Assembly: GCA_903904005.1 (NCBI GenBank)
Contig: CAIVAR010000016.1
Coordinates: 1 to 42,983, forward strand
Source: an uncultured Anaeromyxobacter sp.
Lineage (GTDB): Bacteria > Myxococcota > Myxococcia > Myxococcales > Anaeromyxobacteraceae
DNA: 42,983 nucleotides
Direction: 5' to 3'
Shown one piece after another: positions 37,556 through 40,234 of this stretch. The stretch's first letter is position 1. Every line of letters starts with the position of its first letter. A program made the position numbers and the translations under genes. The notes beneath the pieces were generated by a model, which was not told the origin of the DNA, did no database searches, and saw nothing but the letters and a program-made list of their open reading frames with translations.

Positions 37556-38518
37556 ATGAAGACCGCCGTCTTCCTCATGAACCTGGGCGGGCCGCGGAAC
37601 CTCGCCGAGGTGGAGCCCTACCTCTACGAGCTCTTCGCCGATCCCCTGGTGGTGACCGCGCCGTTCGGGCCGTTCCGTCCGCTCTTCGCCAAGCTCATCA
37701 GCAAGCTGCGGGCCCCCTCCTCGGCGGAGAAGTACCAGCTCATCGGCGGGCGATCGCCGCTCGTCGAGGGCACCGAGGCACAGGCCCGCGCGCTCGAGGC
37801 CGCCCTCGGCCCGGACTTCACCGTCCACCTGGCCATGCGCTGCGGACACCCGAACACGCAGGAGGGGATCCGCGCGGCGCTCGCGGCGGGGGCCGAGCAG
37901 GCGGTGTCGCTGCCGCTCTATCCGCAGTTCGCGAACGCCACCACCACGAGCTCGCTTCGCGAGATGCGCCGCCTCTGGCCGCGCGAGAAGCCGCTCTTCG
38001 AGATCTGCAGCTACCCGGACAACCCCCGCTACCTCGAGGCCTCGGCGGCCACGCTTCGGGACGCCATCGCCAAGGTGAAGCCGGAGAACCGGAAGGATCT
38101 GCTGGTCGTCTTCAGCGCCCACGGGCTCCCCATGAGCCAGGTGCGCAAGGGCGATCCCTACCCGGGCGAGGTCGAGAAGAGCGCCCGGGGAACCGCCCTG
38201 CTCGCGGGCGTGAAGCAGTTCCAGGTCACCTACCAGAGCAAGGTCGGCCCGGCGAAGTGGCTGGGGCCGGACACCAGCGAGTGGCTGGCCGCCAACTCCC
38301 GGGGGCGCGCCGTGGTGACGCACCCCATCGCCTTCGTCTCGGAGCACCTCGAGACCCTCTACGACATGGACATGCTGGCGGCCGAGGCGGCCCGCGAGGG
38401 TGGGGCGCTCGAGTACCACCGCGCCGCCGCGGTCGGGGTTCACCCCGAGTTCATCGGGGCGCTCGCCGACGTGGTGCGGTTCACGCTGGAGCGGGCGGTT
38501 CCGTCCCCACGCGGGTAA
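37556..38518 (+). CDS. hemH: ferrochelatase
   Basis: A 320-residue class I ferrochelatase. Depending on the pathway it inserts iron into protoporphyrin IX or coproporphyrin III. The N-terminal VFLMNLGGPRNLAEVEPYL, the metal-binding His189 (VVFSAHGLP) and the later HPIAFVSEHLETLYDMD with the second acidic site are present. The ATG is one base after the hemN stop. No protoporphyrinogen or coproporphyrinogen oxidase (hemG/hemY) sits between, so that step must be encoded elsewhere. Its 3' end overlaps the convergent DUF4388 gene by 38 bases. Confidence 0.96.
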   Translation: MKTAVFLMNLGGPRNLAEVEPYLYELFADPLVVTAPFGPFRPLFAKLISKLRAPSSAEKYQLIGGRSPLVEGTEAQARALEAALGPDFTVHLAMRCGHPNTQEGIRAALAAGAEQAVSLPLYPQFANATTTSSLREMRRLWPREKPLFEICSYPDNPRYLEASAATLRDAIAKVKPENRKDLLVVFSAHGLPMSQVRKGDPYPGEVEKSARGTALLAGVKQFQVTYQSKVGPAKWLGPDTSEWLAANSRGRAVVTHPIAFVSEHLETLYDMDMLAAEAAREGGALEYHRAAAVGVHPEFIGALADVVRFTLERAVPSPRG

Positions 38519-39434
38519 CGGCTTCGGCGGTCGTGAGCTGGGCCCCCCCGGTCCGGAGCAGGAACCACAGGAGCGACGCCGGGCGACCCGGTCGACGGAG
38601 CAGCACGTCCACCGCCACGGTCCCGTCCATCGCCGCCACGGTCGAGGCGTCCTCCGGTCCGAGGGCGAGCTCCCGGACCAGCGATCCGGACGTGGCGGCG
38701 CATCGGGCCAGGCGTGGCCGGCAGCCCTCGAGCGACGCTGCGAACGAGGGCTCGTCGGCCGAGAGGCGGAGCCCGGCGAGGAGCGGCGCGAGGGCCGGAG
38801 CCCGCTCCCCGCGGACGTCGGCGGCGAAGTCGGACCCGGGGTGGAAGGCGAACGGCCCCTCGGTGCGGGCGCAGAGGGAGGCGAGCCCGCGTTCGAGACC
38901 GTCTCCCCCGGACGCACCCGCGAGCTGCACCGCCACCGGCGTGCCGCGCAGGAGGAAGATCCGGTCGGCCCCGGCAGGCCCATCGAGCGCGACGATGCCG
39001 TCGGCGCCCGCGCGCCAGAGGCGCGCCAGGAGGTCGGCGAGCGACCCGAAGGCGAGCTGCCCGCTCTCCACCGGCGGGCGGGCGAGCACGCGCGCGGTCC
39101 CCGGGGAAGGGGAGTCCGGATCCGCCACGACGGGGCGCGGGGCCGGAGCCCCGAGCTGGATCCGCAGGCGGCGCGCCATCTCGGCGAAGGGCTCGACCGG
39201 GGAGGCGAAGACGATGCCCGGTGTGCCCCGGCGCATCCGGATGATGAGCTCCTCCACGTCGGTGCGGGGAAGGCGGCGGCCGAGCACGGCGACCTGGGGA
39301 TCGAAGGCGGAGAAGGCCTCCCAGGCGGCCTCGGCGTCGGCGGCCACGGCCACGTCGAGCCCCTCGTCACCGAGGGCGCGTTCGAGTGATTCCCGGGAAG
39401 CTGGGTCCCCGTCCACGATGAGGATGCGCGCCAA
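38481..39434 (-). CDS. DUF4388 protein with degenerate receiver domain
   Basis: A 317-residue regulator-like protein. The N-terminal domain (1-115) looks like a response-regulator receiver (ARILIVDGDPASRESLERAL) but the phospho-acceptor position is Gly52 (QVAVLGRRLPRTDV) where active receivers have Asp, so it is unlikely to be phosphorylated. A DUF4388 domain follows (about 135-230: GSLADLLARLWRAGADGIVALDG, IFLLRGTPVAV), a module common in myxobacterial signalling proteins. The rest is Ala/Arg/Leu-rich and unrecognised. The TTG at 39434 is chosen because TACAAT ends 8 nt before it; a GTG at 39488 would overlap otsB. Its 3' end overlaps hemH by 38 bases. Confidence 0.82.
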   Translation of the reverse strand: MARILIVDGDPASRESLERALGDEGLDVAVAADAEAAWEAFSAFDPQVAVLGRRLPRTDVEELIIRMRRGTPGIVFASPVEPFAEMARRLRIQLGAPAPRPVVADPDSPSPGTARVLARPPVESGQLAFGSLADLLARLWRAGADGIVALDGPAGADRIFLLRGTPVAVQLAGASGGDGLERGLASLCARTEGPFAFHPGSDFAADVRGERAPALAPLLAGLRLSADEPSFAASLEGCRPRLARCAATSGSLVRELALGPEDASTVAAMDGTVAVDVLLRRPGRPASLLWFLLRTGGAQLTTAEAVTRVGTEPPAPA

Positions 39435-39442
39435 GCGTCGGG

Positions 39443-39452
39443 ATTGTACGTT
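39443..39452. promoter_or_regulatory. overlapping divergent -10 elements (DUF4388 gene / otsB)
   Basis: The 10-base core ATTGTACGTT contains TACAAT on the minus strand (39448-39443) and TACGTT on the plus strand (39447-39452), sharing two base pairs. Each ends exactly 8 nt before a start codon: TTG at 39434 (minus) and ATG at 39461 (plus). Neither gene has a Shine-Dalgarno in the gap, so both messages would be leaderless and the two promoters could not be occupied at once. Confidence 0.5.
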
Positions 39453-39460
39453 GATCCGGG

Positions 39461-40234
39461 ATGCGGAACGACTTCCTTGCCGGGGCACGGGCCCCCGTCC
39501 TCGCGGAACTGGCCGCGGCCCGCCTCCTCGTCGCCTTCGACTACGACGGCGTGCTCGCCCCGCTCGTCACCGCCCCCGACGGCCGGACCATGCGCCCCCG
39601 GACAGCCCGGCTCCTCGGGGAGCTCGCCCGCCGCTACCCGGTGGCGGTGGTATCCGGCCGCGCCTTCCGCGACCTCTCGCGCCTGGCGCCGGGCCGGGAC
39701 CTCCTTCGGGTGGGGAACCACGGCTTCGAGCTGGGGCGGGCGGTCGCCGTCCCGCGTGCGGTCCTCGCGCAGGTGGCCGGCTGGGAGCGGGAGATCGGGC
39801 GCCGGCTCGCCGGATTCCCGGGCTGGCACGTGGAGCACAAGCGCTCGACCCTCTCCATTCACTTCGGGATGGGGGAGGACTGGAGGCGGGTGGGGCGGGC
39901 GGTGGGGGCGGCCGCGCGGCACCTCCGCGGGGCGAGGCTCCTTCCGGGCAAGAAGGTCCTGAACGTCATCCCCGCGAGCTTCCCCACCAAGGGGGACGCC
40001 ATCCTGAGCATCCTGGCGCGGCGCAGGCTCGACGTGGCCCTCTTCCTGGGGGACGACCGGACCGACGAGGACGTCTTCCGGATCGGGGCGCCCCGGGTGG
40101 TCGGGGTGAGGGTGGGGGCGGGGAGGACGGAGGCCCGGTGGCGCTTGCGGTCCCAGGACGAGGTCGACGAGGTGCTCGAGCGGCTGCGGGTGTTGCGGCC
40201 GCTGAAGCGGCCGCTGCTGAAGGGGGCGCCGTGA
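39461..40234 (+). CDS. otsB: trehalose-6-phosphate phosphatase
   Basis: A 257-residue HAD-superfamily phosphatase that finishes trehalose synthesis. HAD motif I is FDYDGVLAPL with nucleophile Asp27 and acid/base Asp29; motif II VVSGR follows, the cap carries GNHGFELG and WHVEHKRSTLSIHF; NVIPASFPTKGDAI (motif III Lys) and FLGDDRTDEDVF (motif IV) complete it. The trehalose-phosphatase signature GNHG and KGxA-like spacing separate it from general HAD enzymes. No otsA is adjacent. Its stop overlaps the GTG of sixA by 4 bases (GTGA), so the two are coupled. Confidence 0.93.
   Translation: MRNDFLAGARAPVLAELAAARLLVAFDYDGVLAPLVTAPDGRTMRPRTARLLGELARRYPVAVVSGRAFRDLSRLAPGRDLLRVGNHGFELGRAVAVPRAVLAQVAGWEREIGRRLAGFPGWHVEHKRSTLSIHFGMGEDWRRVGRAVGAAARHLRGARLLPGKKVLNVIPASFPTKGDAILSILARRRLDVALFLGDDRTDEDVFRIGAPRVVGVRVGAGRTEARWRLRSQDEVDEVLERLRVLRPLKRPLLKGAP

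Follow-up and report, generated by a model that had tools for sequence, protein, structure and literature searches.

A TA-centred 10-bp core as a probable bidirectional promoter of divergent, near-leaderless receiver-DUF4388 and otsB-like genes in an Anaeromyxobacter genome

The window, the whole stretch of 42,983 nucleotides that was analysed, comes from an uncultured Anaeromyxobacter sp. (source genome G000; 4.56 Mb, 186 contigs, 98% completeness). The gene order is hemE-hemN-hemH, a receiver-DUF4388 gene on the opposite strand, otsB, sixA, xseA and xseB, in which hemE, hemN and xseB were named by us from sequence and synteny. The divergent genes are separated by 26 bp between the minus-strand TTG at 39434 (CAA at 39432-39434) and the otsB ATG at 39461-39463, and both hexamers of the core ATTGTACGTT stop 8 nt short of their start codons. 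The 26-base gap, the shared core and the 8-nt distances on both sides, as given in a preliminary description of the locus, were exact when the sequence was reread. The features are listed below, G002 being a genome of the same genus.

37556..38518, plus strand: hemH, ferrochelatase; its 3' end shares 38 bp with that of the receiver gene, and it is a possible source of read-through into otsB
38481..39434, minus strand: receiver-DUF4388 gene with TTG start (Response_reg, 6.6e-8; DUF4388, 0.0023, below cut-off)
39435..39460: gap between both start codons, 26 bp, 24/26 bases identical in G002
39436, minus strand: predicted transcription start G, 7 bp beyond TACAAT by the usual spacing; 2-nt leader
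39443..39448, minus strand: TACAAT, putative -10 element of the receiver-DUF4388 gene; TA[C/G]AAT lies 6-8 nt before GTG/TTG in 10/10 family genomes
39443..39452, both strands: shared 10-bp core ATTGTACGTT, of the form ANNNTANNNT; the central TA is common to both hexamers, and the core is identical in G002
39447..39452, plus strand: TACGTT, proposed -10 element of otsB, 8 nt before ATG; same in G002
39459, plus strand: predicted transcription start G, 7 bp beyond TACGTT by the usual spacing; 2-nt leader
39461..40234, plus strand: otsB-like gene (Trehalose_PPase, PF02358, 5.2e-22)

In ATTGTACGTT, TANNNT was found on both strands with bases in common, which is the mark of a shared -10 bidirectional promoter. 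On both sides the 8-nt distance also agreed with the placement of TANNNT about 6-8 nt before the start codon that characterises leaderless genes. The scan of positions 38300-39700 revealed no two-hexamer sigma-70-like promoter, no -35 element on either side of the core, and no terminator-like site between hemH and otsB.

The DUF4388 domain exceeded the cut-off in two orthologs of the receiver gene (G006 and G013). The position of the usual phosphoacceptor Asp, located by what we take to be the Asp motif of the receiver domain and aligned by eye, was Gly in G000 and G002 and Ala in G006 and G013; because of these replacements, the receiver is probably not a phosphorylation-driven regulator. As for otsB, OtsA (PF00982) was present in 19 of the 24 genomes of the family, and had no match in G000, G002 and G003. 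The trehalose-6-phosphate synthase that the OtsA-OtsB pathway needs was thus not found in G000, and TreS, sought in G000 only, had no match over the cut-off there. Because OtsA had no match in a genome that is 98% complete, the earlier assignment of this otsB-like phosphatase to trehalose synthesis is doubtful.

The claim that the arrangement of the core is rare by itself was rejected. The bare pattern with 8-nt spacers on both sides occurred at two places in the 4.56-Mb genome and likewise at two in the reversed control, and the second place sits inside a 551-aa frame. Given one TANNNT, one more T is enough to turn an opposite strand that shares the TA into TANNNT. With spacers of 6-8 nt, our own sums were 104 forward matches vs 111 in the reversed control for the 24 genomes of the family, and 162 vs 190 for family f7 with its 12 genomes. 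Taken by itself, the pattern does not go beyond chance, and signal comes only from its position relative to genes; support has to come instead from conservation and from gene-flanked recurrence in related genomes. Within G000, two of eight sites with 6-8 nt spacers lay at divergent coding starts vs 1/18 controls in which the core TA was swapped to AT (p = 0.2; 19 control sites before a duplicate register was dropped, and one place, L135, fitting both real and control patterns).

Before 397 gene starts, called by a home-made caller in about 0.51 Mb of the genome, TANNNT was found 30 times at 4-11 nt vs 34 times over the 38 positions from 12 to 49 nt (p about 4e-7, the two studied genes left out). 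Because of this enrichment, start-proximal -10 elements are ordinary in this genome, and such a distance is a real promoter position here. TACGTT and TACAAT were mid-range when scored against 25 start-proximal hexamers of other genes, whose starts were called in the same home-made way.

The conservation of the two halves was then compared among the 24 genomes of the family, 17 of which have an otsB ortholog at E <= 1e-60. Among these 17, the receiver gene stands between hemH and otsB, or adjoins otsB where the contig ends, in ten. In all ten, TACAAT or TAGAAT, always with CG ahead, lies 6, 7 or 8 nt before the GTG or TTG of the receiver gene. Since hexamer and distance are kept in 10/10 genomes, the minus half is well supported as a leaderless-type promoter of the receiver gene, with predicted start sites, as the preliminary description had proposed. 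The unusual TTG start gained support as well: in G002 this codon is GTG and no alternative start lies further upstream, for which reason an upstream GTG at 39488 was ruled out as the start of the receiver gene. The gap of G002 is again 26 bp with the same core. The coding ends beside it match as well as the gap does, with identical stretches of 26 and 22 bases, and thus the pair of G000 and G002 by itself is no proof of selection on the core. In the seven other otsB-bearing genomes, the receiver-DUF4388 gene is missing from its antisense place between hemH and otsB, and such patchiness points to loss or gain on several occasions.

The otsB half is weaker, as it rests on two genomes of one genus. 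In eight of the ten genomes with the receiver gene, otsB lies 78-96 bp away from it. In all eight of these long-spacer relatives, by our reading, otsB has its own -10-like element (TACACT, TAGACT, TATCAT or TATCGT) near the ATG. On the plus strand at the receiver core, TACGTT is present in G000 and G002, and TANNNT is found in one of the eight long-spacer relatives (G022). The minus half was thus kept in 10/10 genomes, and beyond G000 the plus half was seen in just two, G002 and, standing by itself, G022. Because long-spacer relatives give otsB a -10 of its own, shared use of the core looks derived in this genus. The preliminary description had looked to conservation of the core and both distances for confirmation, and to relatives with a longer spacer lacking the shared core for refutation. 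The core and both distances are kept in G002, while the longer-spacer relatives partly bear out the refutation: their otsB has a separate -10 (8/8), and the plus-strand TANNNT is found in 1/8.

We consider it probable, with considerable reserve, that the 26-bp gap is a bidirectional promoter in which one TA-centred core serves as the -10 element on both strands for two near-leaderless genes. RNA polymerase would bind the core in either orientation and start about 7 bp beyond each hexamer, producing near-leaderless mRNAs of otsB (ATG) and receiver-DUF4388 (TTG). Since the hexamers share one TA and the starts would lie 7 bp beyond each end, the predicted starts are 23 bp apart. The promoter was probably the receiver gene's own ancestrally, and in this genus otsB would have come to adjoin it, the plus strand now reading TANNNT. 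We infer both that the plus half drives otsB and where exactly transcription begins. A truly leaderless state is doubtful for either gene, because the 7-bp spacing predicts a 2-nt leader for each. A U as the first base of a leaderless UUG would be unusual. In the available part of a report on P. acnes, UUG made up 3% of leaderless starts (PMC3848588).

Other explanations were weighed against this one. The core might drive receiver-DUF4388 only, with otsB read through from hemE-hemN-hemH across the antisense receiver gene as in a noncontiguous operon, in which a gene lies antisense within a run of same-strand genes. By gene order, the receiver gene does lie antisense within such a run. This explanation is a possible but rather unlikely one. 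Across the family, hemE-hemN-hemH-otsB-xseA follow one another in constant order; in G003, which has no receiver gene, just 6 nt separate the hemH stop from the start of otsB; and the scanned region held nothing terminator-like between hemH and otsB that would block read-through. However, the -10-like element belonging to otsB in 8/8 long-spacer relatives indicates that independent transcription is usual, and the plus hexamer stands where start-proximal hexamers of this genome normally do.

It is improbable that, beside a real minus -10, the plus TANNNT arose as a by-product of TA sharing and otsB uses an unrecognised promoter inside the receiver gene. The single further T that the plus hexamer requires makes such a by-product easy to obtain, and G022 has TACGTT on the plus strand although its otsB is 96 bp away with its own -10; nevertheless, no two-hexamer promoter-like site was found in 38300-39700. 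That neither hexamer is a promoter appears highly improbable: the two bare matches genome-wide only equal the control, but the minus hexamer and its distance are kept in 10/10 genomes across genera.

A bidirectional promoter at this gap would need no switch, and both directions would fire independently at a low level. The preliminary description had speculated that polymerase exclusion makes the core a switch between the two genes, which is unsupported, E. coli promoters of this kind being too weak at the basal level. According to the available text of a 2026 paper (PMC12825309), opposed polymerases cannot bind at once, one direction was repressed when the opposite one was strongly activated, and the basal activity of five out of five tested E. 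coli bidirectional promoters was too low for polymerase competition. Since no basal competition was seen in those five, exclusive binding does not by itself make a switch.

The pattern recurred beside genes in another family of the same order. In G051, 12 of 25 matches (27 before duplicate registers were dropped) lay exactly between divergent frames starting at the pattern's start codons, compared with 0/22 controls in which the core TA was swapped to AT (p = 0.0001); this genome was chosen post hoc, as its count was above control and its sites recurred. In five further genomes, namely those with every site listed, 17 of 49 sites were at divergent coding starts, so that the six genomes together gave 29/74. 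As TA-to-AT controls were made for G051 and G000 only, the 17/49 was compared with their pooled controls (1/40; p = 0.0001). Coding starts were judged by our own codon log-odds rule, which scores family E as negative in both genomes, and likewise two members of family G despite homology of both flanks. A first batch of 20 sites was chosen by eye, and its counts were not used; some of these loci recur in the full site lists.

When the proteins flanking the 74 sites were compared all-vs-all, both flanks were homologous in nine gene pairs, each shared by two to four genomes; single-flank links (L111/L195, L163/L198, L210/L161) were left out of this count. The conserved pairs include enolase/PilZ, exo-endo-phosphatase/GNAT, hydrolase/acyltransferase and metallopeptidase-like/DUF4388-DnaJ, and in two more pairs a methylpurine glycosylase or a CoxE-like protein makes up one side. 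In 10 chosen of 20 possible within-family site comparisons, 10/60 unspecified core positions differed vs 56/129 spacer positions (p = 0.0003); six core positions are unspecified, and the four fixed letters were left out since the pattern selects them. Spacers of the class are mostly 6-7 nt, which places the 8/8 of the receiver/otsB pair at the long end. In two genomes (L128:1501-1529, L107:2001-2029) the enolase/PilZ pair has ATGCTAGCAT, a perfect palindrome that lies 6-7 nt from either start codon and reads as an extended -10 on each strand (TGn motif).

The largest excess of pattern matches was seen in G042 (2.7 Mb, same order), with 117 vs 70 in the reversed control. Generality to an actinobacterium was rejected: the Brachybacterium genome behind L031 gave 4 matches vs 11 in the control, and only one match (L235) was clearly like a divergent pair by eye. 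There is about an even chance, in our judgement, that in conserved divergent pairs of one high-GC order, enolase/PilZ included, both near-leaderless genes have a TA-centred 10-bp core as their entire promoter, the 22-26 bp gap holding every signal for starting transcription and translation and evolving as one unit.

If this is true, expression both ways would be set by about 10 bp without a leader, a ribosome site or a recognisable -35. Two literatures, on bidirectional promoters and on leaderless mRNAs, would be joined, and natural conserved pairs would suit single-base-change tests of polymerase competition and of leaderless initiation. It would also provide a rule for placing start codons, TTG included, in such genomes.

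Shared -10 bidirectional promoters were reportedly introduced in a 2021 paper. Among titles and the starts of abstracts, we found no leaderless gene pairs sharing one -10, a matter that the 2021 paper may discuss. The core resembles the shared -10 bidirectional promoters of E. coli (PMC12825309) and Salmonella (PMC10268837), as portrayed in the available text, in its symmetrical -10 region read on both strands. The predicted 23 bp between starts also falls at a common distance, since the accessible portion of PMC12825309 gives 18 bp as the commonest and 10 and 23 as common too. Unlike in those systems, the start codons here follow about 2 nt after the predicted starts on both sides, and a leaderless setting is unmentioned in the term-searched text of both papers. 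As with leaderless genes (PMC3160421, PMC12340547; partial texts), a high-GC genome here has TANNNT near the start codon, and leaderless TANNNT genes were described for 8/33 delta-proteobacterial genomes in the former; unlike there, one core would serve two genes, and the distance from first T to start is 14 bp vs about 12. We read the gap as a probable bidirectional promoter with the shared -10 already known from those systems, here serving two near-leaderless genes.
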